Shown here: positions 11,053-60,160 of the stretch, piece by piece
Layout: the number at the start of each line of letters is the position of its first letter
Position numbering within the stretch: position 1 is the first letter of the stretch
From: Synechococcus sp. PCC 7502
GTDB lineage: Bacteria > Cyanobacteriota > Cyanobacteriia > Pseudanabaenales > Pseudanabaenaceae
DNA length: 64,000 nt
Assembly (NCBI RefSeq): GCF_000317085.1
Contig: NC_019702.1
Span: 2,758,394-2,822,393 of the forward strand
Direction: 5' to 3'
Notes under the pieces: generated by a model
Told to the model about the DNA's origin: nothing
The model's database searches: none
What the model saw: only the letters and a program-made list of their open reading frames with translations
Translations under genes and position numbers: made by a program

Positions 11053-11985
11053 ATGGACTGGGATACAGTTCGCACTAAGTTTAAGCAGGTCTGGGGATAT
11101 GATGATTTTCGTCCACCCCAAGGAGAAGTAATTGCTAATTTACTTGCTCGCCAAGACAGTATGGTGATTTTAGCAACTGGTAGTGGTAAATCTATTTGCT
11201 TTCAATTACCTGCTCTACTCCAAAATGGACTAACTTTAGTAGTCTCGCCATTATTATCGCTGATTGAAGACCAAGTTAAAGATTTACAAAGTCGTAACCT
11301 TGCTGCTGCTGCCCTCCATAGCAGTTTATCCAGCCTGGAGCGCAAACAAGTATTTAAAAGAATCTCTAGCCTCAGACTTTTATATCTTTCCCCTGAAACC
11401 CTCTTAAGTAAACCAGTTTGGGAAAGACTTAGCGATCCAGATTTAGTAATTGTAGGCATGATGATTGATGAAGCTCACTGTTTGGGGCAGTGGGGAGATT
11501 CCTTTCGCCCAGACTATCGTCGCTTAGGAGTTGTACGTTCAGCTTTAATGACCCATAAACCTGCTAGTCATGGCAATATGGCGATCGCTGCATTTACCGC
11601 TACAGCCGATCCTAAAACGCAATCTGACCTTAAGTCTTGCCTAAAACTACATACACCTCAACTAATCCGCACCAGTCCCTATCGTTCTAATTTAAGCTTA
11701 AATGTGGCGATTGCATGGACAATGGCAGGCAGAAAGAGCCAAACCTTAAAATTTATTCAAGCTCACAAAGGACAATCTGGCTTAATTTATGTTCGCAGTC
11801 GCCGTGATACTGAAGAGTTAGCAGAATGGCTCAAGGGGCAATCTTTTCTGACTTCGGCATATCATGCAGGCTTACCCAGTTCGGAAAAACGAGAAATTGA
11901 ACGTAAATGGTTAGTTGGCGGCTACCCCTTTGTGATCGCAAGCTCCGCATTTGGGCTGGGAACTATCATACAATTGGAAGTGTAA
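11053..11985 (+). pseudogene. recQ: recQ 5' part, interrupted by the 47.7 kb element
   Basis: Encodes the first 303 residues of a RecQ-family 3'-5' DNA helicase: Walker A ATGSGKS (41-47), DEAH at 139-142, the FTATAD motif and the start of motif V (ASSAFGLG). After codon 303 the frame enters the element and stops within 8 codons. Motif VI, needed for ATP hydrolysis, lies 47.7 kb away at 59646-60160, so this fragment should be inactive as a helicase. Removing the element at the GGGAA core restores a 474-codon gene, so it is interrupted rather than degenerate. Confidence 0.95.
11958..11962 (+). other. attL core (GGGAA)
   Basis: This is the only stretch of identity between the two element ends. 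Serine recombinases exchange at a 2 bp crossover inside a short core, so a 5 bp shared core fits the enzyme encoded alongside. The exact crossover dinucleotide cannot be told from one integrated copy. Confidence 0.85.
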
Positions 11986-12011: not shown

Positions 12012-13988
12012 ATGAGAATTTACGGCTGTACCAATCAAAGAGATTTAGTAGAACTACCTAATACACATCTTGAGAAAATTTACAACATTGTTTTACCTAA
12101 TTCTAGTTCTAATAAAAGAATAATTGGATATGCAAGATTAAGCAGTAGAGAACAGCATTTAGAGGGTTATTCACTAGAAGCTCAGATGATGAGATTGATC
12201 AATGCTGGTTGCAACGAAATCATATTTGATATTCAGAGTGGTCGCCAATATAAAGAGCGCGATCGCAAGGGCTTCCAAGAATTACTTAGATTAATAGAAC
12301 TTGGTCAAGTTGATGAGTTGGTTGTTGATCGGATTGATAGGTTAGGTCGATCTGTCCTGTCAATTAGGAAGGCGATCGATTTTCTTTCTGCAAAGGGGCA
12401 AAAGCTGCGATCGCTAAGAGAACAAATAGATACTGATACTGCCAGTGGTAAGTTAATGCTCAATATGCACGCTAGTCTTGCTGAATATTATTCTGATGCT
12501 TTGAGCGAAGCAGTGAAAAATGGACACCGTGGGATGAGAGAGCGCAATTCTGCATACTTTCCAATATTTGGGTACAAAGTTGAAAATCAAAAATATGTAC
12601 CCGACTATACGGAGGTTCTATGTCTAATAGATGGTCGGCAAACCTTAACTAAAGTAGATATTGCCAAGGACTTAATCAAAACTTATCTGGAATTTAGAAG
12701 TTTTCGAGCTGCCCGTATAGCGATCGCAAAAAAGTACGGAATTAATCACATTCCAGATACAGCTTGTGGCAGAGGTAGTAACCAGCAAGGGCGCGTAAAA
12801 ATGCCGATTACATCTGCTGGCTTTAGTAGTTGGCTAAATAATCCAATACTTCGGGGTCATACCTGCTATGGACGATCTGGTAAGCAACGAACTAGACACA
12901 GTTCTAAATGGGATATTCGAGTGAATACACATGAAGGCATTATGAGTGAATCAGAATATCAAGAAGTAAGCCAATTGCTCCAATGGAACGTCGATCATCA
13001 TGTTAGGCACAATGGGAAGACAAAGCCAATACACCCGCTATCTGGGTTAATTAAATGTGCAGAATGTGGTGGTACTCATCGGGTCTATTACACAATGGGA
13101 CGAGAGAAAGTCTATATGTATGGCTGTAGTAACTATGCTAACTATCGGTCATGTACTCAAAAGCAAGTAATTCAGTACAGACTAGTTGAGCCATTGGTAC
13201 TAAAAATATTATCTGAACGAGCAGTTAATCTCGCCCAACTTGCTAATACTGTTAACCCAGTACCAGAGATACCAAAGCTTCGGGAATTGCGATCGCAGTT
13301 ATTAGGATTAGAAAATCTTGGCAATAACCCTGCCCTTGAAGCTGCTAAGAGAGATTTACAACGCCAGATAGAGCTAATTCAATTTGAGCAAAAGTCCAAT
13401 GAATTAAATGCTAAGTCTGTTCACTCTCTGACTGCTGAAGTATTTGCTAATCCACTTTACTGGTCAACTTTGGATCAACAGAATAAGCAGGATATTTTTA
13501 GAGCATTGATCAAAGAAATTTTAGTTAGAGGTCAATATGTTCTAGGGGTAACTTTAAGAGATGGTCATGCTGTCCAATTTCCAGATTTGAAAGTACCAAA
13601 AGAATTGAAAGGTCACAAGATAGTAGTTGGCACTAAAGTTATAGTCTGCTCCCGTTGGGGCGATCGCAAAGAAGGCGAGGTAACTCAAATAACTTATCGC
13701 AGCAATACTGAAAGTACAAAGCGTTTAACCGTTAATTGCGAAAAAGAGACAATTTACTTTGATAGACGAACTGGTAGAGAAGTCCCACCATCTGGAAAGG
13801 TTGATAGGTATGTTGTAACAAGATGGATCGAAATTGAAACTAAAGATAAGCCAAGTATTCATTGTCCAGTTTGTAATAGCGATCGCCTCCGTAAGAATGG
13901 TCATAATCATGCTACTGGTAGGCAACAATTTGTTTGTAAGGATTGTTCTAAGCACTTCCTACTCAAACCTATTGATGAGAATGATTAA
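12012..13988 (+). CDS. Large serine recombinase (XisF-like) with a C-terminal InsA-type zinc ribbon
   Basis: 658 residues from the ATG at 12012; an upstream in-frame ATG would put the start inside recQ sequence. The resolvase domain has the nucleophile in YARLSS (Ser44) and VDRIDRLGRSV. A recombinase domain and a zinc ribbon (CAECGG ... CSNY ... C, about 348-380) follow, then a coiled coil. The C-terminus adds a small beta-rich segment and a second Cys4 ribbon (CPVCNSDRLRKNG ... CKDCSKHF, about 618-648) like the DNA-binding N-domain of IS1-type InsA. It is expected to catalyse excision/integration of this element at recQ. Its 3' end overlaps a convergent small gene by 20 bp. Confidence 0.93.
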   Translation: MRIYGCTNQRDLVELPNTHLEKIYNIVLPNSSSNKRIIGYARLSSREQHLEGYSLEAQMMRLINAGCNEIIFDIQSGRQYKERDRKGFQELLRLIELGQVDELVVDRIDRLGRSVLSIRKAIDFLSAKGQKLRSLREQIDTDTASGKLMLNMHASLAEYYSDALSEAVKNGHRGMRERNSAYFPIFGYKVENQKYVPDYTEVLCLIDGRQTLTKVDIAKDLIKTYLEFRSFRAARIAIAKKYGINHIPDTACGRGSNQQGRVKMPITSAGFSSWLNNPILRGHTCYGRSGKQRTRHSSKWDIRVNTHEGIMSESEYQEVSQLLQWNVDHHVRHNGKTKPIHPLSGLIKCAECGGTHRVYYTMGREKVYMYGCSNYANYRSCTQKQVIQYRLVEPLVLKILSERAVNLAQLANTVNPVPEIPKLRELRSQLLGLENLGNNPALEAAKRDLQRQIELIQFEQKSNELNAKSVHSLTAEVFANPLYWSTLDQQNKQDIFRALIKEILVRGQYVLGVTLRDGHAVQFPDLKVPKELKGHKIVVGTKVIVCSRWGDRKEGEVTQITYRSNTESTKRLTVNCEKETIYFDRRTGREVPPSGKVDRYVVTRWIEIETKDKPSIHCPVCNSDRLRKNGHNHATGRQQFVCKDCSKHFLLKPIDEND

Positions 13989-25740: not shown

Positions 25741-26961
25741 ATGTCTAGGAATAATACTCAAATAAGTGTCACTGCCTTAACCCAAAAGATTACAAAGCTG
25801 CTCAGAGAAAGTATTGGTGAAGTTAGAGTATTAGGCGAGATTTCGGGGTATAAAGCTGCGTCCTCTGGGCATCGGTATTTCACACTCAAAGATGATGAGT
25901 CGCAAATAGACTGTGTACTCTGGGGTAGCAAGCAAATCTCCTTTATGCCTAGCGATGGGATGCGGGTAATTGTTACGGGTAAGCTGACGGTCTATGCCAC
26001 GAGGGGTAAATATCAGATTGATTGCCAATCTCTAATACCTGCTGGTCAAGGTGAGTTATATCTGGCTTTTGAGAGATTGAAACAGGATTTAGCTGATGGT
26101 GGATTTTTTGATCGCAAGCGTCCTATCCCAGCATTACCTTTGCATATCGGCATAGTCACTTCTCCCACAGGAGCAGCCATACAGGATATGTTATCTACTC
26201 TTAATAGGCGATCGCCACACTGTCAGATTTATCTATGTCCAGCTAGTGTGCAAGGGGAATATGCAGCCCAAGAAATTGCCAATGCTATCACCAGACTAAA
26301 TCAAGTTTTAGCGGGCTTTAATAATGCGGTGCTGATTGTGGGTCGGGGTGGTGGTTCTTTAGAAGATTTATGGGCGTTTAATACTTTACCCGTTGCCGAA
26401 GCTATTTATAATTCAGAAATTCCTATAATCTCCGCAGTTGGGCATGAGACAGATTTTACGATCGCTGATTTTGTTGCCGATGTCCGTGTCGCTACGCCAA
26501 CCGCCGCCGCCGAATTAGTAACTCAGAGCGATCGCAATACTTTACTCGGTTATATTCAAGCGGTTGAGCAAGAGTTAACTGAGAATATTCAAGCAGTCTT
26601 AGAGTCTAAGAAGCAAAAAATTGATCGCTTAATTAATAGCTATGGATTTCAGAAATTGGGCGATCGCTTGAAGAACTACAGTCAAAGGGTAGATGAAGCT
26701 GAGAATGCCTTAACCAAGCTGATAAATCGCAACTTAAAAACTGCCAGAACTAAATTAGATGCTCTTGAAGCTCATGGTAAATCTCTATATCCATTGTCTC
26801 CTCTGGGTAGGGGTTTTGCCTTATTACAAGATGGCAATCATATTATTTCTGCCAGTGAATCTTTGAGTGAGTTTGACCAGATAGCGATCGTCCGTAATAG
26901 CGAAGTTGCCCATGCTACGATCCAGACCGTAAAGCCCAAACTAACCTATGACCATGACTAG
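25741..26961 (+). CDS. xseA: Exodeoxyribonuclease VII large subunit
   Basis: 406 residues. N-terminal OB fold (VRVLGEISGYKAASSGHRYFTLKDDESQIDCVLW), catalytic core with TSPTGAAIQDML, GRGGGSLEDLWAFN and ISAVGHETDFTIADFVADVRVATPTAAAE, then a coiled coil. With XseB it degrades single-stranded DNA from both ends. Unusual as cargo; whether the host has another copy cannot be seen here. Confidence 0.95.
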   Translation: MSRNNTQISVTALTQKITKLLRESIGEVRVLGEISGYKAASSGHRYFTLKDDESQIDCVLWGSKQISFMPSDGMRVIVTGKLTVYATRGKYQIDCQSLIPAGQGELYLAFERLKQDLADGGFFDRKRPIPALPLHIGIVTSPTGAAIQDMLSTLNRRSPHCQIYLCPASVQGEYAAQEIANAITRLNQVLAGFNNAVLIVGRGGGSLEDLWAFNTLPVAEAIYNSEIPIISAVGHETDFTIADFVADVRVATPTAAAELVTQSDRNTLLGYIQAVEQELTENIQAVLESKKQKIDRLINSYGFQKLGDRLKNYSQRVDEAENALTKLINRNLKTARTKLDALEAHGKSLYPLSPLGRGFALLQDGNHIISASESLSEFDQIAIVRNSEVAHATIQTVKPKLTYDHD

Positions 26962-28127: not shown

Positions 28128-31100
28128 GTTTCCAATCAATTAGGTTCCCTAGCGAGTAGGGAGACCGATGTTCTCACCGAAGTTGCGGAACACCTTTGAG
28201 TTTCCAATCAATTAGGTTCCCTAGCGAGTAGGGAGTCTAAGTAGTCAGCCATAGAGCCGCTTACACCACTAAGGTTTCCAATCAATTAGGTTCCCTAGCG
28301 AGTAGGGAGACAGCAGTAGGTTTATTATATAATCTTGTTCTACTTCGTTTCCAATCAATTAGGTTCCCTAGCGAGTAGGGAGGCTATTGGAACTGGCTGT
28401 CTTATAGAAGTAAGAAGTTGTTTCCAATCAATTAGGTTCCCTAGCGAGTAGGGAGAGTAGTTTTAATACTGTCCTTGCCGAGAATGAGTATGTGTTTCCA
28501 ATCAATTAGGTTCCCTAGCGAGTAGGGAGCGTCTGAAGAGGCACAAGGAAAAGTCTTTTATCAGAATGTTTCCAATCAATTAGGTTCCCTAGCGAGTAGG
28601 GAGCGAAACAATGAAGAATGTTAAACTTCTAGCGGCACAAGCCGGTTTCCAATCAATTAGGTTCCCTAGCGAGTAGGGAGCTGTAAGTCCCCATTCCTCT
28701 GCCTTTCATAAGGGCAGTTAGTTTCCAATCAATTAGGTTCCCTAGCGAGTAGGGAGCTTGTTTACACCCATGGAGTTAATGTTATGTCTAAATCTTTTAT
28801 GGGTTTCCAATCAATTAGGTTCCCTAGCGAGTAGGGAGCTATTGGAGTTAAGTAGAGATGTGTAATAGATAATAATTTAGTTTCCAATCAATTAGGTTCC
28901 CTAGCGAGTAGGGAGCGGTGATGATGAGCCACCTTCGGGTGAGGAGGGTGATCAAAGTTTCCAATCAATTAGGTTCCCTAGCGAGTAGGGAGAGAGTGCC
29001 TTTGCCTGTACCCATCTGGGCATGTACCGGGTTTCCAATCAATTAGGTTCCCTAGCGAGTAGGGAGCCGCCCACTTGATTGTTTATGATGACTTGATTAA
29101 ATCCCGTTTCCAATCAATTAGGTTCCCTAGCGAGTAGGGAGCGTGGTAGCTGAGCCTATTGCTGCTCCTAAACCAGCTAACGTTTCCAATCAATTAGGTT
29201 CCCTAGCGAGTAGGGAGGCGTCTCTGAACAACTCCCCAATAGAGGAATATTTCATGTTTCCAATCAATTAGGTTCCCTAGCGAGTAGGGAGTGAATTCAC
29301 GCATCCGAGTCAACCATGTCTGGGTAAGGGTTTGTTTCCAATCAATTAGGTTCCCTAGCGAGTAGGGAGCTCCTATCTTTCTTCTCCTTTGCAATCTAGG
29401 TTGGTCGTTTCCAATCAATTAGGTTCCCTAGCGAGTAGGGAGATGTTTATGCTTGGTTCAAGTATATAACAGAAGAGTTTAAGTTTCCAATCAATTAGGT
29501 TCCCTAGCGAGTAGGGAGTATAGGAACTTATCTTAGAAGTGTATTGTTATTAACAGTTTCCAATCAATTAGGTTCCCTAGCGAGTAGGGAGATTGGCTTG
29601 GATACATATTAGCTGATGGATGTATACAAAGTTTCCAATCAATTAGGTTCCCTAGCGAGTAGGGAGAAAGCGAAAGCGGTTTGGTCAGCCCCGACAAGCA
29701 AAAGGGAGTTTCCAATCAATTAGGTTCCCTAGCGAGTAGGGAGCGCCGGGGTCGTTCAGCACCTCGAACAGCAGGTTGTGGGTTTCCAATCAATTAGGTT
29801 CCCTAGCGAGTAGGGAGGAAAAAACTTGATGTTCAATTTCGTTCACAACTCGACAGTTTCCAATCAATTAGGTTCCCTAGCGAGTAGGGAGTTGCCAATC
29901 GTGTTCAACCACACGGTAGAGCTAACTCAGTTTCCAATCAATTAGGTTCCCTAGCGAGTAGGGAGACTTGTCTGCACTTCATTAGGATTGCTAGGATTGA
30001 GTGTTTCCAATCAATTAGGTTCCCTAGCGAGTAGGGAGTAGTTCAGGTGGGCAAACCATAATTAACGCAATCACAATGTTTCCAATCAATTAGGTTCCCT
30101 AGCGAGTAGGGAGGCAACATTGGGAACAACTGATCCAGTAACCTATCCTAGTTTCCAATCAATTAGGTTCCCTAGCGAGTAGGGAGCGAATCCGATATAT
30201 GGGAATCCCTCAATATTAATTAGAGTTTCCAATCAATTAGGTTCCCTAGCGAGTAGGGAGAACTTGGAATGTCAGTTTAGTAAATTGATTGAGAGATTGT
30301 TTCCAATCAATTAGGTTCCCTAGCGAGTAGGGAGTAAAAGTAGAAACAAAAGAAGGCGAAGGCTCAATATTGTTTCCAATCAATTAGGTTCCCTAGCGAG
30401 TAGGGAGTACGGCTTATTCCACTACGCCTTCATCGAGTTTAACTGTAAGCGGGTTTCCAATCAATTAGGTTCCCTAGCGAGTAGGGAGTTCGGCGGAGCA
30501 TCCGACTTCACCTTCACCCCTGACGGGAAGTTTCCAATCAATTAGGTTCCCTAGCGAGTAGGGAGCATGAACTATCCGATGATGACCATTGATGCATGCC
30601 TTTTCGAGGTTTCCAATCAATTAGGTTCCCTAGCGAGTAGGGAGATTTGCGAGAAAGTGAGCGCATAACTTTGCACGAAGAAGGTTTCCAATCAATTAGG
30701 TTCCCTAGCGAGTAGGGAGAGCATAAGCGGGTTAACTGCCTTCTGCACTCAATACAGGTTTCCAATCAATTAGGTTCCCTAGCGAGTAGGGAGACCAACT
30801 ACACAAAGGATTATTTCAGTAGTTCTTCTATTGTTTCCAATCAATTAGGTTCCCTAGCGAGTAGGGAGATGAACCGTGCTACCAAGCATGCAGATAAGCC
30901 TAATAAGTTTCCAATCAATTAGGTTCCCTAGCGAGTAGGGAGCATCATCTGTCATGTAATAGAACAGACGAGCCAAGTCAAGTTTCCAATCAATTAGGTT
31001 CCCTAGCGAGTAGGGAGCCTTAATGCCAAGTTAATTGGCTTAGCTACTCTTGTTGGTTTCCAATCAATTAGGTTCCCTAGCGAGTAGGGAGGCGGAGTTA

Positions 31101-32590
31101 CCTAAGTTTGGTATATGGTCTGGTAATGTTTCCAATCAATTAGGTTCCCTAGCGAGTAGGGAGGTATTGAGTCACCCTACCAGCCCTGCTTCTGGGCGGT
31201 TAAGGTTTCCAATCAATTAGGTTCCCTAGCGAGTAGGGAGGTGATAATTAATGAGTGATGAACCAATTGAGCTTCTGTTTCCAATCAATTAGGTTCCCTA
31301 GCGAGTAGGGAGTTAAAGCCAATGCAGTTAAGTCTGATTTAGGTAATTGGTTTCCAATCAATTAGGTTCCCTAGCGAGTAGGGAGCGTAACCGAAGCCAA
31401 GACCGCACCTAAAAATCAATATGTTTCCAATCAATTAGGTTCCCTAGCGAGTAGGGAGCCCTAAACCATCGCTTATAGCAAGTTTTACACTTTTTAAGTT
31501 TCCAATCAATTAGGTTCCCTAGCGAGTAGGGAGCTGCCGAAGGGGGCGATCTTGATGCTTGCCGTAATTGGATGTGGGGAAGTTTCCAATCAATTAGGTT
31601 CCCTAGCGAGTAGGGAGTGTGGAAATCTGAAAGGGTGCCATTTAGCAGATCACAGTTTCCAATCAATTAGGTTCCCTAGCGAGTAGGGAGATGATCGCGC
31701 CAGAGATCAGGGAGATTTCACAGTATCTTATGTTTCCAATCAATTAGGTTCCCTAGCGAGTAGGGAGAGAGCCTAGCCAAGTAATGTCGCCAGTTATCGG
31801 TAAGTTTCCAATCAATTAGGTTCCCTAGCGAGTAGGGAGAATACATTGGCATGCTGGTTGTTAGAGGTAAAGCTCCGTTTCCAATCAATTAGGTTCCCTA
31901 GCGAGTAGGGAGCTGTGGTGGTTCATGCAATGAGTTGACATATCTCACAGTTTCCAATCAATTAGGTTCCCTAGCGAGTAGGGAGATAAAGGCGCTAATC
32001 TTCTTGCTATCCTCGTCTTCCACAGTTTCCAATCAATTAGGTTCCCTAGCGAGTAGGGAGATAGCTCTAAGGTGATTGGTAAGACCTTTGAAACATTGGT
32101 TGGTTTCCAATCAATTAGGTTCCCTAGCGAGTAGGGAGTTCGAGAAATTTGATACCTTCTTCCATAATTCTCCAAACTAAGTTTCCAATCAATTAGGTTC
32201 CCTAGCGAGTAGGGAGTTTAATAGCTTTGAGTATCTTACGGATAGTCTTTCCGTTAGTTTCCAATCAATTAGGTTCCCTAGCGAGTAGGGAGATATAAGA
32301 CTCAACTTAGTTTCTCTTTTCGCATTGGTGTTTCCAATCAATTAGGTTCCCTAGCGAGTAGGGAGTTATATACCCATCGCCCCTGTATTAAGTTATCAGC
32401 TACAGTTTCCAATCAATTAGGTTCCCTAGCGAGTAGGGAGTATGTCAATTCCTTACATGAACCACCACAGTTGCTATCCGTTTCCAATCAATTAGGTTCC
32501 CTAGCGAGTAGGGAGCAAGGATGTGAACCAGCGGTTCAAAGTCCGCTTCATCATGTTTCCAATCAATTAGGTTCCCTAGCGAGTAGGGAG
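28128..32590 (-). CRISPR. CRISPR array, 60 identical 36-nt repeats, 59 spacers
   Basis: On the plus strand the repeat begins GTTTCCAATC and ends GAGTAGGGAG. On the minus strand it begins CTCCCTACTC, has a TCCCTA/TAGGGA hairpin and ends GATTGGAAAC, the usual 3' end giving an 8-nt TTGGAAAC tag, so crRNA should be read leftwards from a leader at 32591-32723. Average period 75 nt, spacers mostly 35-46 nt. I saw no mutated repeat at either end and no repeated spacer. The repeat resembles the CRISPR3 (type III-B) repeat of Synechocystis as I recall it. Confidence 0.98.
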
Positions 32591-32723: not shown

Positions 32724-33002
32724 TTAAATAACTGTAGATTGTGGTAACTCAGTTAACGGTGGCTCACCCCAAATTATAACTTGTCCAACGGTATGCTTAG
32801 AAATTGGGTAAAGTCTCATACTATCTTCAGCAATTTTTATTTTTTTAGGAAGACGTTTACATAATTCCTCAAATTTGGCATTGGATAAAACACATTCAAA
32901 TACGCTGTATTGAACCCGTTTGCCATATCCTTCTAGTAAATCTGAAACTTTCTTGCGACGCTTATCACAAGGAATATCATAGGTAATTACATAAAATAGC
33001 AT
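32724..33002 (-). CDS. cas2: CRISPR-associated endonuclease Cas2
   Basis: 92 residues. MLFYVITYDIPCDKRRKKVSDLLEGYGKRVQYSVFEC-type start with the conserved Asp after YDI, and YPISKHTVGQVIIWG at the end. Forms the spacer-integration complex with Cas1. Ends 133 bp from the array. Confidence 0.97.
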   Translation of the reverse strand: MLFYVITYDIPCDKRRKKVSDLLEGYGKRVQYSVFECVLSNAKFEELCKRLPKKIKIAEDSMRLYPISKHTVGQVIIWGEPPLTELPQSTVI

Positions 33003-33009
33003 AAATAAA

Positions 33010-33999
33010 TTATCGAATTAAATACGGTTTATAAGTCATAGTTGGCTCATATACACAGTTTTTATAAGCTCTAATTTGCTGAGTGAGGGTATCCCAACGG
33101 GGTTGTTCTCCTGAATCAGTTTGTAAAGATTGCTCCATCCTTTGAATAAAAGCCTTCAAATACTTTTTGCGTCCAGAATCATTAAGATAACATCCACCAT
33201 CACGATACTCAAAGTCGCTACCCAGATTAATTACACCACGATTTACCAAATAAAGAACTAGAGAATCCACAATAGGAGCACGAAATTCTTCGATTAAATC
33301 AGAAGCTAATGCTGCGTGTTTTTCTGAACTTTGATGTAAGCAAGCATGATAGGGATCAAGACCTTGTAACTCCACAAGAGCGAGTATGTGATTCCAAAGA
33401 ACTTGGTACCCAAAACTGAGCATAGCATTAACTGGATTCCCTGGTGGTCGGCGAGTTCTAGCACTAAATACAAACTCAGGATTATCTATACACTCACTAA
33501 AAGCTGAAAAATAAGCGGCGGCGGCGGCTCCTTCAATTCCCAGTAACTGGTCTGTAGTTTCGACTTGGAATGTGCGATCGCACAGGTAGTCTAAACTTTG
33601 AATAGTTGAGCATAAATGCTCCGAGGCTTTACGTCTATTTTGGCGTTGCAGGATCACACGACTATTTTTGATTTTTGCATTAACAATTTGTCTAGCAATT
33701 AATAGTCTTTCTAAAATTGATAGCTGTTGCTGGTAACGGGATAACTGTCGATAGCCTCTTTCAATGGCAATAACACGACCATAGCAATATCCCATCCGAG
33801 AAAGATAGGCAATCGGAATATCTCTTTGTAAGCAAGTGGTAATAACTTGAGTTGTAACCTGTGACTTGCCAAAGATCAGAATTTGCTCAAGTAGAGGAAT
33901 CTGTACCTTGTCTAAGATATTTTCCCCTTGCTTAATAATTATTTGCTCTTGTTTAAGAGAAATATAGCAACCCTGCTGTGAAATATATAGCGATCGCAT
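33010..33999 (-). CDS. cas1: CRISPR-associated integrase Cas1
   Basis: 329 residues. Predicted metal ligands Glu156 (GIEGAAAAAYF), His222 (CLHQSSEKH) and Asp234 (LASDLIEEFR). PPGNPVNAMLSFGYQVLWNH is a strong Cas1 block. 7 bp upstream of cas2. No reverse transcriptase fusion. Confidence 0.98.
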   Translation of the reverse strand: MRSLYISQQGCYISLKQEQIIIKQGENILDKVQIPLLEQILIFGKSQVTTQVITTCLQRDIPIAYLSRMGYCYGRVIAIERGYRQLSRYQQQLSILERLLIARQIVNAKIKNSRVILQRQNRRKASEHLCSTIQSLDYLCDRTFQVETTDQLLGIEGAAAAAYFSAFSECIDNPEFVFSARTRRPPGNPVNAMLSFGYQVLWNHILALVELQGLDPYHACLHQSSEKHAALASDLIEEFRAPIVDSLVLYLVNRGVINLGSDFEYRDGGCYLNDSGRKKYLKAFIQRMEQSLQTDSGEQPRWDTLTQQIRAYKNCVYEPTMTYKPYLIR

Positions 34000-34010: not shown

Positions 34011-34286
34011 CTAACGATCAATATCTGAACGATCTCGACTTTTAGTAATATCCGTACTCTTACTACGAGGTAATAATTCTACCTGTTGATCTCGTTGTAG
34101 GTACATAATAAGGCGATCGCTTCCTACTAATAAACCATAGGTTGAAGCCATTACTAACGCAGTGTTAACAATAACAGCTAGTAAACCTAGAGGAGCGATC
34201 AGCAGAATTACAAGACTAATGATGCCATTTGCAACGGATACAGAGATATTACGGACTTGTGCTGTTTTAGAATTAAGGTAATACAT
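34011..34286 (-). CDS. Small two-helix membrane protein, Csx18-like
   Basis: 91 residues. VRNISVSVANGIISLVILLIAPLGLLAVIVNTALVMASTYG gives two membrane helices, then a basic cytoplasmic tail. It fits the small membrane protein Csx18 seen in cyanobacterial type III loci, and lies 11 bp before cas1. It may tie the CRISPR effector or adaptation proteins to the membrane; unproven. Confidence 0.6.
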   Translation of the reverse strand: MYYLNSKTAQVRNISVSVANGIISLVILLIAPLGLLAVIVNTALVMASTYGLLVGSDRLIMYLQRDQQVELLPRSKSTDITKSRDRSDIDR

Positions 34287-34314: not shown

Positions 34315-34653
34315 CTAGGCTACGGCATATCCCGTATATTGTCTGAAGCTTGGCTCCTGAAATCCTAATACGATATCTGATTTAGGAATACCTGCCTCAA
34401 CTAATTCATTCGTAACGATAGATTCGGTTCCATCTCTTTGAACCCACACTAAACCATCAATAATTTCTATATGAATAAGGCAGCCATGAACGCACCGATG
34501 ATTTTTATCCCAGCCTACTGAAATAACTATGTACTCATCAGTTTTAGGGTCAAAAGCAGCTTTGTTTTTAGCGTTGACGTTAGCATAATTAACATCAATG
34601 TATCGATTCAAAACGTTGCAAATAATTTGACGGTAAGTTGCTAGTTTATCCAT
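34315..34653 (-). CDS. xisI: XisI family protein, without XisH
   Basis: 112 residues. YRQIICNVLNRYIDVNYANV, FDPKTDEYIVISVGWDK, IEIIDGLVWVQRDGTESIV and DIVLGFQEPSFRQYTGYAVA match XisI, named from the fdxN excision element of Anabaena, where XisH and XisI are needed with the recombinase XisF. Its usual partner XisH, a nuclease-like protein, is absent. It sits within the cas gene run. Confidence 0.9.
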   Translation of the reverse strand: MDKLATYRQIICNVLNRYIDVNYANVNAKNKAAFDPKTDEYIVISVGWDKNHRCVHGCLIHIEIIDGLVWVQRDGTESIVTNELVEAGIPKSDIVLGFQEPSFRQYTGYAVA

Positions 34654-34701
34654 TGCACAATTATCTCCTGATCAGAGTTAAAAATAATAAGATTGATAAA
34701 T

Positions 34702-35952
34702 TTACCCAATCAACTCCAAAACTGTTTTATTAAGTAAATCAAAAGAGGATTCATTTGGAAGAGTCAATAGCTTAACTAACTTTTTCATAATAGCAATTAC
34801 CCCCACCCCGTTATCAATCACAGAAACACCCTCAAACCGATGAACTCGACGATTGCGCTGTTCGCAGTATTCATTAAGCTTCTTGATATGTATAAGCACA
34901 TTTTTAAGTTCGGCATAATAATCTAAGATCCCGATTAAGTGAAATCTGTTAGGATACCCTTCTGGTGTTAAATCCCATCCTTTTACACGATAATCCTTTA
35001 ATAACTCCTGATAAGGTTTCCCCCCATCAACCATCTTCACCTTATGCCAAAAATCAACAGCTTCTTGCAAATTATTAGGTACGGAAATCCGTAGCTTTTT
35101 TACTAATAATAATGCTAAAAAACACTCCTGAAACTGTGAGATTAAAACTAAAAACTCTGAAAATTCTAGATTTTTATAACGAACTAAAGCATTAAAATAT
35201 AATTCTTTACAAATCGCATCTAACTTTCTCTGCCGAAGAGCAGCAATCTCTTGTAATAACTGCGGATTTATATCAATTTTTACTAGTTTAATATTAGAAA
35301 ATGCTCTATTAAAATCAAAAGCCATCCGACATCGCCCATACTCTAATAGGAGAATTGCATCATCACAATTTAAACAAGAAATTTTAAGAGATCTTAAGGC
35401 ACCTCCATAGTTGTAATCTTCCAGTTGTTTAACAATCACTCGCCGATCAAACTCTCTCCGCAAAACGGTCACATTAGTCTCAAAAATCCTCTCTTGTCCT
35501 TCCTTCATCTCATAGGGATTTCGCACTTGCAGAACCCGACCATTTTGAACATAACCCGATGCTTGTAACAAACTAAAAGCCGATTTCATAGCAGGCGTTC
35601 CAGATGAGGCATTAAATTCAATGCGATCGCCTAATTCCAAGCTTTTTTGAATAAATTCTAGCCCCTTTTTTGCCTCTTCTGCTGCCAATAACAAGTCAAT
35701 TGGATCATCAGACAAATCTTGACTTACTTTAATAAGCGATACACTTGTACTTAAAAGCCCTATTTCGGACTCAATCCAATCTTTGGTATCAATGGCACCT
35801 TGCTGGGTAGATTCGGTATAAAGTAGTACGACTTCTTTAATTTCACATCCATCTGCGACTAAGTAACGTAACAACGAAATAATAGACCCTTCGTTATTTC
35901 CCTTGGCAAAGGGGTCTTGCAAACCTACAAACGATAAAACAATACTAGCCAT
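34702..35952 (-). CDS. CARF-HEPN ribonuclease (Csm6/Csx1-type), first copy
   Basis: 416 residues. The N-terminal CARF-like domain has IVLSFVGLQDPF and GDRIEFNASSGTPAMKSAFSLLQ (ligand loop). The C-terminal HEPN domain has an Rx4H motif, RNRRVH, near residue 367. Expected to bind cyclic oligoadenylate made by Cas10 and cut RNA. It starts 2 bp after the second CARF-HEPN gene and shares little obvious sequence with it. Confidence 0.8.
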   Translation of the reverse strand: MASIVLSFVGLQDPFAKGNNEGSIISLLRYLVADGCEIKEVVLLYTESTQQGAIDTKDWIESEIGLLSTSVSLIKVSQDLSDDPIDLLLAAEEAKKGLEFIQKSLELGDRIEFNASSGTPAMKSAFSLLQASGYVQNGRVLQVRNPYEMKEGQERIFETNVTVLRREFDRRVIVKQLEDYNYGGALRSLKISCLNCDDAILLLEYGRCRMAFDFNRAFSNIKLVKIDINPQLLQEIAALRQRKLDAICKELYFNALVRYKNLEFSEFLVLISQFQECFLALLLVKKLRISVPNNLQEAVDFWHKVKMVDGGKPYQELLKDYRVKGWDLTPEGYPNRFHLIGILDYYAELKNVLIHIKKLNEYCEQRNRRVHRFEGVSVIDNGVGVIAIMKKLVKLLTLPNESSFDLLNKTVLELIG

Positions 35953-35954
35953 GA

Positions 35955-37454
35955 TTATATGGATGCTGGTTGATATTTAGCGATCGCTTTTTCTATATCT
36001 TGATGAATATTAGCCATTAAACTTGCCTGACCCAGAGAATCAAAAGTTTGCTCGGTAATAAAATTTAAGAAGCTGAGAATTTGATTTTCCCACTCAATTT
36101 GTCCTTGCACCTCCCAAAATTCCCAAAGCTGGGTTTCAGTCATACCCAGTAGTTGATGAAAAACTATATTTCTTCTATCAGTAATCTTCAATCCCTCTTT
36201 CCAAAACATTTTTAATTCTTTACAGTCAGTTTCGTAATTTTTACGGATGTTTCGGAAAAGTTTGCATAAAGAACTCAAATCCAATAATATTCCACTTTCT
36301 TTTTCGATTTTACATTTTAGTTTTGCTAAATCGTCCTTAGGGTCACCATTAGACTTAAACTTAGCAGTCTGAAAATAGTTTTTTTCATCCGTCAGTATTG
36401 AAGGCTGAAGCATAGGCTTGCCTTTTTCTTTGTGGATATGCCCCCTAAACTCTTGATCGCCCCATTTCGAGAAAATGCCTTCAAAAGTACGAAAGCTATG
36501 AAAGAAAGCTTCAACAATATTTTCCTGAGTAAGCCTGACTACCCCTAAATAGGCTGCTTCATATCCAGTCCACCACCATTGTTGCGATCGTTCTTGAGCC
36601 TTATCACCTAAAACATCTGCAAACTCTTGAAATTTAGAGTTATTCCAATACATTGCAGCTTCTAATAGTTTTTCAATATGTAGATTTTGAGAAAAATAAG
36701 GTTTAAGAATTGAATCTACAGCTTCATAGTCGAAACGCTTCAGAAGAGCTAAAGCCTCTTTTTGTCTTCGATCCCAAAGATAGTTAGCTCCTAGAGAAGG
36801 ATTTCCATAAAGTGATGCTTTGCCAGAGAGATTACGTTCCTTATCGATAGAGAAATCATAAAATATAGCATTTTCCGCAAATTGACTTAGAGCAGTAATT
36901 CTAGAAGCTTCAGAAGACTGTCCAACTCCCCCCTTAAGACAAAGGATAACGGGTAAATCTTCACTCAGTTTCGATGTGATGTAATTCCATATGCCCTTCC
37001 ACCATTGAAACATCTCCTCAAAGTTTGAAGGGTTGTATCCTTCATGCCCTTGTAAGATTACTTCTACAGGCACCTCAAAATACTTTTTAATCCACAGTTG
37101 GATAATTTTGGCAGAATAAAGTGTATCTTCTCCTCTAAAACTTACAGATTCCAATTGATCTGTACCGATCAAATAAATTTTTTCTAATTCTTTAGACTTA
37201 TCTTGAAGTAGCTGCCCTATGATTATTGGCTGAAGGCGATCGCTATATTCATCCCAAGATTCCAGAAAGAAGTTGGTTATTTCCCGCAAGGATGTATTTA
37301 CTTTCCCAACATCCTCTTGGACTAACATCCTATCAGTTTTGCTATTGCCTTCAGCTTGTTTGTCTCCAATATTTCGCCATTCTCCAGTAGATACCTGAAA
37401 TGCCAAATCTCGTGTGCCAATTGTTGCCACCAAAATTGATCTTTTGTTAGACAT
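35955..37454 (-). CDS. CARF-HEPN ribonuclease (Csm6/Csx1-type), second copy
   Basis: 499 residues. N-terminal ILVATIGTRDLAFQV and VILCLKGGVGQSSEASRITAL are CARF-like strands and loop. The C-terminal HEPN motif is DRRNIVFH near residue 426. It probably responds to cyclic oligoadenylate; a different ring size from its neighbour is possible given the divergence. Part of the cmr operon. Confidence 0.78.
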   Translation of the reverse strand: MSNKRSILVATIGTRDLAFQVSTGEWRNIGDKQAEGNSKTDRMLVQEDVGKVNTSLREITNFFLESWDEYSDRLQPIIIGQLLQDKSKELEKIYLIGTDQLESVSFRGEDTLYSAKIIQLWIKKYFEVPVEVILQGHEGYNPSNFEEMFQWWKGIWNYITSKLSEDLPVILCLKGGVGQSSEASRITALSQFAENAIFYDFSIDKERNLSGKASLYGNPSLGANYLWDRRQKEALALLKRFDYEAVDSILKPYFSQNLHIEKLLEAAMYWNNSKFQEFADVLGDKAQERSQQWWWTGYEAAYLGVVRLTQENIVEAFFHSFRTFEGIFSKWGDQEFRGHIHKEKGKPMLQPSILTDEKNYFQTAKFKSNGDPKDDLAKLKCKIEKESGILLDLSSLCKLFRNIRKNYETDCKELKMFWKEGLKITDRRNIVFHQLLGMTETQLWEFWEVQGQIEWENQILSFLNFITEQTFDSLGQASLMANIHQDIEKAIAKYQPASI

Positions 37455-37515: not shown

Positions 37516-39444
37516 TTAAGTGAATGGAAAAATTTGAATTGCTCCTTTTAATTTACTAATAAATGCTTTGCGTGGGTCTTCGGTTGCTCCAAATACAGTA
37601 ACAACTTGATATTCACCTATACTAGCTATCCAGACTGGAGAAGGTTTTACTTCTTTACCTACAATGCCGCAGAGATTACCATCATAGGTTTCCTCACCAC
37701 GCCGATCTTTAACCTTTAACTGCTTACTATGCAAAACTGACAGCGCATAGGGCTTACCATAATCCTCATCACCCCCACACAGCACAATCTTACAATTTTT
37801 ATCCACTGCCTCACGCCAGTGATCGCCACTAATCGCAGTTGGTGCAGCTAGATTTCCTTTAGAATTGCTCAACTCTCTTAGTGCTTCGGAAAAATGCTTG
37901 ATCTTGGATTGATATAGCTTTTGTATATCTTTTAACTCATCAGGAAGATCCCAGAAAGCATCATCACTATCGATAAAGAATGTAGAACCACGATACCAGG
38001 GGGCACGTTCTCGAGTTTTTCGGGAGTAACAAGGTCTTCTTGCTCCTTGTCCGATTCCACCGAGGTTAAACATCAACCAAGTAAGACTCCTAAACAACTT
38101 TTCGACATTTTCGGGCTTTTGAGCGTTTGGTTCTGTCGAATGAGACAAGGTTAAAATACCAGCCTGTTCTCCACATTTATCATCCCTACCTTGAGTATTT
38201 GGACGTGGTTCTTTCTGTACCACAGCACCTTCTAAAATTCGTACTTGTACCCATCCACTACCCTGAATATCCAGAGATCCAAAAAGATTTCCTTCCCATT
38301 CATTAACTAGTTTTGCAGGAATAATCCCTAATGCAAAGGCACGAAACCAATAACGTAGCATTGACTTAAAAGCAATAGGGCGAACCTCAGCTTCAGCCTG
38401 ACCACGCATTTGATATTCATTACGGCGATCGTTCCATTGCCACTGTGTAAACTTCTGGCGACCATGAATAAGTTGACCTTCTAAGCCAAACTCAACTCTA
38501 AAAAACTCACGACTAGAGCGATCGCTTTCACCAGCCTTAAGCAAAGCCCCATATCCTGAATTAACCTGAGAACCGGCACCATTTATTAAGCCAGCCGTCA
38601 ACCAGCCCATCACCTTATCAATTAGTGCTTTTTTAGCATTATCACTCACTGTACTCGCTGCCCTAATGCCAATTAAAAAAATCGGCTCCTGCAAAGATAA
38701 AAATGGATTGGGATTAGGTTCATACTCTAGACAACCATCTTTCCACTTCCAAATATTATTTGCCATATCTACAGTCAAACCGCCCGACATATCATCACGA
38801 CTAGGGACAGGATAGGCATCCAGAAAAACTATCTTGCCCATACGATCGCTATCTTTGGCATCCAGAGAACCAAAATATTTCTCGACTTCCTTCTCATTAT
38901 TTAACTGACGAAATGCCTCAGCCCTTGCCACACCCCGCAAGGTACTTGAAGGAATATATGGCATCCCTAAAGCATCAAAAGCTGGTAACAAAATACTCTC
39001 GGGTCCGCGATGTCCGCCTACTCGAATTCGCCAAGGGCATTTCACTTGAAAATAGTTACCCTCTCCTGCAATCTTCTTAGTCCGTTCGGTCAATTTTGTT
39101 AAGCGTTTAGAATAGTCAGCTTTGTCTTCGGACAACTGTAAAATCTGGAGCTTTGTTCCGTCTTTGTTTCCTTGATCTAGCGATCGCATCCAGCGCAAAT
39201 ATTCAACAAAACTCGCCGAAGGATCAATTTTCTCAGGAGATCGTCCCATTAACCAAGGCGAAGGCTCTTGATTATTACCACCATTACCTCCACCGCCATG
39301 ATTTCCACCACCTTGATTGCCTCCTCCACCTCTAGCAGGTGCTGGAATTACTTTCTTTTGTGTCTTTGGTGTTTGAATAGCAGGATTAGGCTTTGTTGGG
39401 GCTGTAGTAGGTCTTTGAGGCGCGTTTGGTCTTGTAAATGCCAT
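37516..39444 (-). CDS. Cmr6-Cmr1 fusion protein
   Basis: 642 residues. A Pro/Gly-rich disordered N-terminus (GGGGNQGGGNHGGGGNGG, about 38-60). A Cmr6-like RAMP domain (about 65-305) has PYIPSSTLRGVARAEAF and GLINGAGSQVNSGYGAL. A Cmr1-like RAMP domain (about 320-640) has VRPIAFKSMLRYWFRAFALG, NLFGSLDIQGSG and GGIGQGARRPCYSRK. Both subunits sit at the 3'-guide end of the type III-B effector, so fusion is structurally sensible. Confidence 0.82.
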   Translation of the reverse strand: MAFTRPNAPQRPTTAPTKPNPAIQTPKTQKKVIPAPARGGGGNQGGGNHGGGGNGGNNQEPSPWLMGRSPEKIDPSASFVEYLRWMRSLDQGNKDGTKLQILQLSEDKADYSKRLTKLTERTKKIAGEGNYFQVKCPWRIRVGGHRGPESILLPAFDALGMPYIPSSTLRGVARAEAFRQLNNEKEVEKYFGSLDAKDSDRMGKIVFLDAYPVPSRDDMSGGLTVDMANNIWKWKDGCLEYEPNPNPFLSLQEPIFLIGIRAASTVSDNAKKALIDKVMGWLTAGLINGAGSQVNSGYGALLKAGESDRSSREFFRVEFGLEGQLIHGRQKFTQWQWNDRRNEYQMRGQAEAEVRPIAFKSMLRYWFRAFALGIIPAKLVNEWEGNLFGSLDIQGSGWVQVRILEGAVVQKEPRPNTQGRDDKCGEQAGILTLSHSTEPNAQKPENVEKLFRSLTWLMFNLGGIGQGARRPCYSRKTRERAPWYRGSTFFIDSDDAFWDLPDELKDIQKLYQSKIKHFSEALRELSNSKGNLAAPTAISGDHWREAVDKNCKIVLCGGDEDYGKPYALSVLHSKQLKVKDRRGEETYDGNLCGIVGKEVKPSPVWIASIGEYQVVTVFGATEDPRKAFISKLKGAIQIFPFT

Positions 39445-39480
39445 AGCTAGATTCTCCTGAAAAATTAAAATTAACTCTCT

Positions 39481-40125
39481 TTAAAAAATATCCTTGAGAG
39501 ATTGACGGAACTCTCTTAGCATCGAACTTGCCCCGATTGCAATCGCCCGACTCACAAGTTGCGGAATCAGAGTCTTAATTGCTAAATCTGGAAACAACAA
39601 ACTATCCTTAGACTCAACATACTGCCCTTCTCTTAGCAAAAAGATCTTTAAAGTATCATCGCTATAAACCCACACTTCAGGCACTGCGATCTCTTGATAG
39701 GCAGAAAGCAAAGTCTTAGAGGTTACATCAGACTCGATCGCCAAATCAGGGGGTGGAAAAATATCCACATCAATTCGTCCCTGACAATTTCGCACTGCCG
39801 CCGAATTAGCAATATAAAAACAAGTATCAGGCTCCAAGCCTGCCCTACACTGCCTTTGAAAAGTGGTTGAGCCAAAGTCTTCCCAATCTCTACCCTGAGC
39901 ATCCAAAATTGCCTTGACAATATCTCCAGCGATCCGATGGGGGCGTTCATGTCTTGATAATGGCGACATAATTTCTAAAGTACCTTGGTAGTATGCAATG
40001 CGGGTATGGCGATCTTCCCCTAACTCATTGAGAATATTTTCACAATCTCCCCAACTTAGAGAATGGATAGCGATCGTACTTCCATGTCGTAGGTCTATCG
40101 ATTTAATCGGAATAGTAACACTCAT
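39481..40125 (-). CDS. Uma2-family PD-(D/E)XK nuclease-like protein
   Basis: 214 residues. GTLEIMSPLSRHERPHRIAG, LEPDTCFYI and PPDLAIESDVTSKTLLSAYQEIAVPEVWVY are the Uma2 (DUF820) landmarks, with Asp and Glu in nuclease-like places. Uma2 genes are very common in cyanobacteria and poorly understood. It lies inside the cmr operon, 2 bp from cmr5, so it is co-transcribed with the effector. Confidence 0.85.
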   Translation of the reverse strand: MSVTIPIKSIDLRHGSTIAIHSLSWGDCENILNELGEDRHTRIAYYQGTLEIMSPLSRHERPHRIAGDIVKAILDAQGRDWEDFGSTTFQRQCRAGLEPDTCFYIANSAAVRNCQGRIDVDIFPPPDLAIESDVTSKTLLSAYQEIAVPEVWVYSDDTLKIFLLREGQYVESKDSLLFPDLAIKTLIPQLVSRAIAIGASSMLREFRQSLKDIF

Positions 40126-40127
40126 AA

Positions 40128-40520
40128 TTAGTCATCTCCAGATACATCATAGTAAATTGCTGTTGTCCAAAAGCTAAATTCTTGAGCGATCGCTAACCCC
40201 AGACCTGTTATGCCAAGATACTCATCTACTGTCAAGGCTTTCAATGTTGATAATCCTTGATTATTTGCCAAATTTTGCTTACCAGAGATATCTTCAAGAC
40301 ATCTAAAGAAAGCCTTAACAGACTGCTCTCGCCCGTCAGTTCCTAATGCTATTTCCTCAGCTTTTAAACGCATTAGTCCCCAAGTAGAAAGATAAGTGTA
40401 AAGTTCCTGTGCCTGACTTTTTTGCTTTTTAACAATCGGATCATTTTTATCTCTACCTCCTCTTAGGTTGACTAGGGAATCATAGACGGATGTCCCTAAT
40501 TTACGTGGATCGAATGTCAT
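40128..40520 (-). CDS. cmr5: Type III-B small subunit Cmr5 (Cas11)
   Basis: 130 residues, helical. AQELYTYLSTWGLMRLKAEE and AIAQEFSFWTTAIYYDVSGDD fit Cmr5, the inner filament subunit of the Cmr effector. Assigned from the helical pattern, length and place after cmr4. Confidence 0.8.
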   Translation of the reverse strand: MTFDPRKLGTSVYDSLVNLRGGRDKNDPIVKKQKSQAQELYTYLSTWGLMRLKAEEIALGTDGREQSVKAFFRCLEDISGKQNLANNQGLSTLKALTVDEYLGITGLGLAIAQEFSFWTTAIYYDVSGDD

Positions 40521-40532
40521 AATTACTCCTTT

Positions 40533-41320
40533 TTAGATAAATAGTTGAACAAAACCACGACCTAAGCTTTCTTGCCCACCAATCTGTAAAATGGAATCTT
40601 TTTTTAATAGTGTTTTGAAATCAGTTAAAGCTTTTTGACTACTGCCATTGGCTTGCGAGGTCACACCCCAAGGGAAGTACATCAGGGTGTCAGGGGGAAT
40701 TGCTTCTTCATAACGAAACCCACCATCAACAGTTTTGTCTTGATCAAGCTTGATTTTGACCTGTCGCCATAAGCTCATCTGAATTAGCGTGGCACAATGC
40801 TGATCGGGCAAAACCAAAACATTTTTCATTCCTTCAGACTCAGGATGATTGGTTGTGAACTTATCCCAATCCGTCCATTTTCGCAAGTCAGCAGCAGGTA
40901 AGATCGCATCCTTTAGATACACAGGAGCATTAGTGGACAAACTCGTGGAATAGGGATCGGGTACTTCTAATTTATCAGGATTGCCAGCAAATCTCAGCCA
41001 ACGCCGTAAGAGAAGAGGTGAACTTACCCAGACTACCCCATGACTTAATGAAGGTACAGGCAACCAAAGAATAGAACCATCACCAATCCAAATCGAACCT
41101 TGCTCAAGTTGGACTCCATCAGCTATTTCATTACCAAATAAAGCAAATTTTTTCTGTTGATCACTCTCACTCGATCTCAACCTACCCCGAATCGTACTAG
41201 AGGGTATGTAAGGTAAATTTGTATGAGACTCACGAGCGATTCCCAGCAGATTACCCTCTTGAGTTGTGCCTCCTGTATGAAGTGGGGCAATTAAGTATAA
41301 GTAAGTCAATTCCATAGTCA

Positions 41321-41321
<1 letters not shown>
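40533..41321 (-). CDS. cmr4: Type III-B backbone subunit Cmr4 (Cas7)
   Basis: 262 residues. LYLIAPLHTGGTTQEGNLLGIARESHTNLPYIPSSTIRGRLRS is the Cmr4 start and IGGQESLGRGFVQLFI its C-terminal glycine-rich RAMP loop. Cmr4 repeats along the guide and cuts target RNA every 6 nt. Stop and start overlap cmr3 by 1 nt. Confidence 0.92.
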
Positions 41322-45477
<4,156 letters not shown>

Positions 45478-59640: not shown

Positions 59641-59645
59641 GGGAA
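59641..59645 (+). other. attR core (GGGAA)
   Basis: Right partner of the 11958-11962 core. Immediately beyond it the recQ frame resumes with INKSDVRW. Confidence 0.85.
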
Positions 59646-60160
59646 TTAATAAGTCGGACGTGCGCTGGCTCATCCACTATCAGTCACCTTTAACCCTCTC
59701 TGAGTATATCCAAGAAGTTGGTAGAGCAGGCAGAGATCAGAAACCCGCCCAAGCTTTAATGCTGGTAAGTGAACCATCGGGTATTTTAGATTCAAGCGAT
59801 CGCAATCGCCACGAATTTTTTTTACAAGAACAGCAGAAACTCCGCCGTAAAGCACAGATTATTATTCCCAAACTACCAACAAAGGGTAATTATGAAGAGG
59901 TAAGCAGAAAATTTGCTGATGCGGCGATCGCCCTTGGACTTCTTCACAGCCACGGCAAATTAATTTGGCATAATCCCTTTGAATATCAAATCCTCAACGC
60001 TAAATCGGAACTTCCTGATTATGACCGTACTGCCATCGATCAGATGCAGGCATATATTTCCACTAAAAGTTGTCGATGGTCTTTTCTAATGTCAGCATTT
60101 GGATTTAACCAAGAGGCAAAAGGATTAAGATGTGGAATCTGCGATCGCTGCCGATCATAA
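59646..60160 (+). pseudogene. recQ: recQ 3' part
   Basis: Encodes INKSDVRWLIHYQSPL, the arginine-finger motif YIQEVGRAGRDQ and the zinc-binding end with CGICDRC. No own start or ribosome site. No HRDC domain, so the joined gene is a short RecQ of 474 residues. All conserved residues remain intact, which argues that the gene is still functional when the element leaves. Confidence 0.93.

Follow-up and report, generated by a model that had tools for sequence, protein, structure and literature searches.

A gene for XisI without a partner XisH lies inside a type III-B cas operon in the window analysed here, a stretch of 64,000 nucleotides from Synechococcus sp. PCC 7502, and the operon itself is carried by an element with an XisF-type recombinase. 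The genes xisH and xisI are reported to be required for excision of the fdxN element, and xisF, xisH, and xisI act together in Nostoc 7120 (PMC4874684). A preliminary description of the window had proposed that the lone XisI either links CRISPR activity to excision control or is an immunity/antitoxin module left after the loss of XisH. The question addressed here is which of these readings, if either, fits the gene.

The orphan xisI gene and its operon

The xisI gene was found exactly where it had been placed, at 34315–34653 on the minus strand. It encodes a protein of 112 residues that belongs to the XisI family (PF08869), which it matches over its full length (positions 1–110 of 110) with 139.3 bits against a curated cut-off of 25, and it keeps every column that is invariant among 12 relatives. 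Its best matches are 58–63% identical and come mostly from XisH–XisI pairs of other families. In the XisI tree, it falls within a clade (support 99/97) of six paired and four unpaired copies. Its nearest paired relative is L005. No orthologue was found at the same location, and no XisI relatives were found in the phage collection or in one scan of viral contigs. The host genome contains two XisI genes. The second adjoins an intact XisH (contig C3, 2,050,490–2,051,226) and is 39% identical to the window XisI; the XisH beside it is from a different clade.

The operon is encoded on the minus strand in the order cas10, cmr3, cmr4, cmr5, Uma2, cmr6/cmr1-like, two CARF-HEPN genes, xisI, csx18, cas1, and cas2, followed by the CRISPR array. 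The effector genes, including the Uma2 insertion, occupy 37516–45477. One CARF-HEPN gene lies at 35955–37454 (PDLC01795, 432 bits), and the other, which is Csx1/Csm6-like, lies at 34702–35952 (PDLC01806, 591.6 bits), with a C-terminus that is not visibly truncated in comparison with seven homologues. On the other side of xisI are csx18 (34011–34286; PDLC01382, 106.7 bits), cas1 (33010–33999; PF01867, 306.7 bits), and cas2 (32724–33002; PF09827, 82.8 bits). The array (28128–32590) comprises 60 perfect repeats and 59 spacers. The position of xisI between a CARF-HEPN gene and cas1 was thus correctly described, with the small csx18, unnamed at the time, also in between. The xisI gene is co-directional with its neighbours and separated from them by 48 nt on the CARF-HEPN side and 28 nt on the csx18 side.

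The Uma2-family gene (39481–40125) lies within the effector part, and Uma2 genes are also present in the related operons L036 and L091. Comparison of the spacers with the other loci examined gave only 16-nt matches, which are not meaningful, and one scan of a genome-contig collection revealed no relatives of the CARF-HEPN protein.

An XisF-type element interrupting a helicase gene

The preliminary description had placed XisI and an XisF-like recombinase in a single element, and the ends of this element could be located. A recQ-type helicase gene is split into a 5′ part (11053–11962, plus strand) and a 3′ part (59641–60151, plus strand), with a GGGAA core at both ends of the interruption, and joining the two parts at GGGAA gives an ORF of 474 residues that aligns without gaps and with 86% identity to an intact homologue from a genome of the same genus. 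The element (11958–59645) spans 47,683 bp between the two cores and contains the cas operon, the array, xseA, and XisI. The large serine recombinase (12012–13988, plus strand) is located just inside the left end. It carries the PF00239, PF07508, and PF13408 domains and scores 413.3 bits on the NCBIfam XisF equivalog model (NF041201), above its cut-off of 375; its ORF opens at 11907 within the recQ part, although the likely start is 12012. An annotated cyanobacterial XisF shares about 31% identity with it, and one scan of a genome-contig collection yielded no relatives.

Like the fdxN element of Nostoc sp. PCC 7120, which carries xisF, xisH, and xisI, this element possesses an XisF-family recombinase, interrupts a gene at a short direct core that flanks it as a repeat, and has XisI inside. 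There are also differences: the target is a recQ-type helicase, the recombinase shows the 31% identity to an annotated XisF given above, a CRISPR-Cas locus is carried, and, of the two excision factors, XisI is present whereas XisH is reduced to a stump.

The recombinase has an extra C-terminal zinc-finger-like domain (residues 653–685 of the 693-residue ORF) that resembles the N-terminus of IS1-type transposases. The xseA gene (25741–26961), which encodes the large subunit of exonuclease VII and is normally a core gene, also lies inside the element. A possible division of the recombinase and the CRISPR locus between separate elements, with xseA between them, was abandoned once the 3′ half of the helicase gene was found at 59641–60151.

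The XisH stump upstream of XisI

As had been noted, no intact XisH adjoins xisI. The 48 nt from the CARF-HEPN stop codon to the XisI ATG, however, read INLIIFNSDQEIIVQWIN* in an overlapping frame and belong to the last 18 codons of an XisH gene (34645–34698, minus strand), an assignment based on the frame, the relatives, and a C-terminal profile. The stop codon of this stump overlaps the xisI start, as the XisH stop codon does in complete XisH–XisI pairs, so the overlap geometry of a pair is preserved. The XisH of L005 ends in VLKLFTFNPDQEVITRWIA*, and CTGATCAGGAG is identical to the stump at the DNA level. On a profile built from 48 XisH C-termini, the stump scores 31.1 bits. In the null set, from which loci holding a real XisH had been removed, each context was spliced to this XisI start as a control for the overlap; the best of 17,046 other ATG contexts reached 13.4 bits, and none of them reached 15. 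The stump has no ATG of its own, although an ORF of 22 residues could begin at a TTG close to its 5′ end, and it contains a Shine-Dalgarno-like AGGAG upstream of the XisI ATG.

The stump fused to the XisI start shows that an XisH–XisI cassette inserted at this site, either whole or already trimmed as it arrived, and that its XisH has since gone. The window XisI is the remnant of that cassette. Compared with the pairs of L005–L007 (PF08869/PF08814), it is likewise a full-length XisI whose start is overlapped by an XisH stop codon, with 59–63% identity, but its XisH is cut to the last ~18 codons and it sits in a cas operon.

Asymmetric occurrence of XisI and XisH

XisI and XisH were counted in 25 cyanobacterial genomes, a set selected for low contig number and a moderate number of XisI rather than at random, and pairing was scored by HMM matches within 150 bp. 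Of 117 intact XisI genes, 62 adjoin an intact XisH, 25 adjoin a broken or partial XisH (a count that includes the fragment at G135:C7:176509-176679), and 30 have no XisH match; 55 of 117 thus occur without an intact XisH. Conversely, 61 of the 64 intact XisH genes adjoin an intact XisI and three adjoin a partial or stop-bearing XisI match, leaving none (0/64) without an adjacent XisI. A split of 55 to 3 departs strongly from equality (binomial p about 2e-13), with the proviso that loci of related genomes are not fully independent. This is the pattern of toxin–antitoxin occurrence, in which the toxin-like gene is never alone and the antitoxin may be.

When pairing is mapped onto a tree of 85 XisI, 27 changes are needed to account for the unpaired copies, at least 19 of which are forced by supported forks, and these copies do not cluster. 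XisI orphans thus arose many times. Among 30 further XisI scored as unpaired, 15 retain an XisH tail of about 7 to 28 codons that scores at least 10 bits.

Other arrangements were also seen. In L244, an intact XisI is preceded by an XisH that has lost its middle, so that the first 14 residues run directly into the C-terminal tail (MSAKDLFHQAVLIA..IKSVKQEVVLWKE). On two cyanobacterial plasmids (L051, 5363–6330; L052, 4363–5330), XisI overlaps by 4 bp a non-XisH gene of 213 residues, which is annotated as an N-6 DNA methylase or as hypothetical and may be an alternative partner.

Cyanobacteria carry abundant XisHI at a distance from both CRISPR loci and XisF recombinases, at a density of roughly one XisI per Mb, and many partial XisI and XisH copies accompany the intact ones. 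A multitude of XisH–XisI pairs elsewhere had been named in advance as grounds for refuting the earlier interpretation; it was found in the phylum at large but not in the host, which has one other pair.

Relation of XisI to CRISPR-Cas and to excision

XisI might have been recruited and retained as a type III-B ancillary factor, for instance one that regulates the CARF-HEPN effector or Cas1–Csx18. This would agree with an intact, co-directional gene that is separated from its neighbours by 48 and 28 nt and probably shares a transcript with them. Such a factor should recur with cas genes across lineages. However, no XisI or XisH homologue was found within about 1.5 kb of csx18 at any of 29 other Csx18–cas1 loci, and none of seven related CARF operons contains an intact XisI; in L035, L037, and L038, related CARF operons show the order CARF-csx18-cas1-cas2 without it. 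One homologous type III-B operon from another family (L091, 8312–9413) does hold an XisI between cmr6 and the homologous CARF gene, which it adjoins. A Uma2 gene cuts this copy in two, and IWI is present in each of the flanking pieces at the break; it is an independent, dead arrival at another operon position. Three XisI genes are found no more than 5 kb from a cas1 gene, where 0.47 are expected, but the window case, which prompted the question, is among the three. The two others each lie on the far side of cas2, about 3.8 kb from cas1, and one of them is a normal XisH–XisI pair on a plasmid. In addition, the stump shows that XisI arrived as part of an XisHI cassette. A recurrent cas-operon role was accordingly dropped, and recruitment as an ancillary factor is considered unlikely. 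It is very unlikely that XisI was co-opted as a stand-alone immunity or regulatory protein, with cas transcription supplying it so as to block incoming XisH-bearing elements or to tune excision of the element.

Control of excision in the manner of the fdxN element, perhaps with XisH supplied by the pair at 2.05 Mb, would draw on the presence of XisI and an XisF-family recombinase in one bounded 47.7-kb element and on the joint action of the three genes described for Nostoc 7120. The element’s own XisH, however, is a stump without an ATG, and the remaining host XisH is from a different clade, its XisI being the one with 39% identity. Moreover, when about 10 kb on each side of XisF-like recombinases was surveyed, a span shorter than the longest elements, XisHI was found in only 1 of 22 regions. 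This is close to the chance expectation of ~0.5, because XisI occurs roughly once per Mb. XisHI is thus not enriched in such regions, a general co-occurrence with XisF was discarded, and a part for this XisI in excision seems highly doubtful. Together with its absence from all 29 other Csx18–cas1 loci and the abundance of XisHI elsewhere, these results leave the suggested link between CRISPR activity and excision control unsupported. The gene could also be functionless, a decaying copy that inserted recently, was cut back by a deletion, and still awaits inactivation, in keeping with the many partial copies in cyanobacterial genomes and with the dead XisI of L091. Yet, the window ORF is full length, with all invariant columns and a putative ribosome-binding site retained, and no known relative shares more than 63% identity with it, so that the copy is not obviously recent. 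Simple decay is therefore judged improbable.

A candidate toxin–antitoxin-like pair

The orphan XisI is what is left of an XisH–XisI cassette in which XisH is probably harmful alone and XisI its antitoxin, immunity, or control partner, now probably a passenger with the cas genes. The cassette entered the type III-B operon at the junction of CARF-HEPN and csx18, and all of xisH except the last ~18 codons was lost. XisH may be a nuclease-like toxin or a restriction-type partner, and XisI an antitoxin, an immunity protein, or a control subunit. XisH has been used as a known PD-(D/E)XK member (PMC1189080), and structures exist separately for XisH (2INB and 2OKF) and XisI (3D7Q, 2NLV, 2NVM, and 2NWV). 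If XisH is harmful without XisI, it could be freely deleted while XisI persists, and XisI would stay because the XisH tail carries its putative ribosome-binding site and because XisI is harmless. The xisI gene probably shares a transcript with the cas genes, and its product may protect against an incoming XisH of the same clade. A role of the window XisI in CRISPR immunity or in element excision is not established.

The frequent occurrence of XisI without XisH, and the near absence of XisH alone, supports an antitoxin- or immunity-like role for XisI and points to a toxin–antitoxin-like pair more than to an excision switch driven by CRISPR. Of the two earlier proposals, the module left after XisH loss is therefore the one that holds up, through the stump fused to the XisI start and the large excess of XisI-only over XisH-only loci in the 25 genomes. 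As in type II toxin–antitoxin modules with orphan antitoxins, the antitoxin-like partner occurs alone, the toxin-like one never does, and the genes are small and overlapping. Unlike in those modules, the toxin-like gene comes first and XisH is PD-(D/E)XK-like. A comparable case is the xisH–xisI pair in the hox region of Lyngbya majuscula, a non-heterocystous cyanobacterium, where XisHI also stands beside unrelated genes and is co-transcribed with hoxW, but there the pair is complete and the context is hydrogenase (PMC2674450). Some observations stand against the favoured explanation: a plain toxin–antitoxin reading does not explain the role in fdxN excision, and the dead XisI of L091 and the window copy make two matches in eight operons, which leaves some room for recruitment.

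For the element, a complete type III-B CRISPR-Cas locus is carried on an excisable XisF-type element, so that a cell in which it excised would regain the helicase but lose the immunity. XisI alone should not be taken as a marker of excision or of a CRISPR linkage. For the family, the asymmetry and the repeated deletions of XisH that spare the tail holding the ribosome-binding site give a testable reading, in which XisHI is a toxin–antitoxin-like or restriction-like pair and its requirement in fdxN excision could be a derived use.
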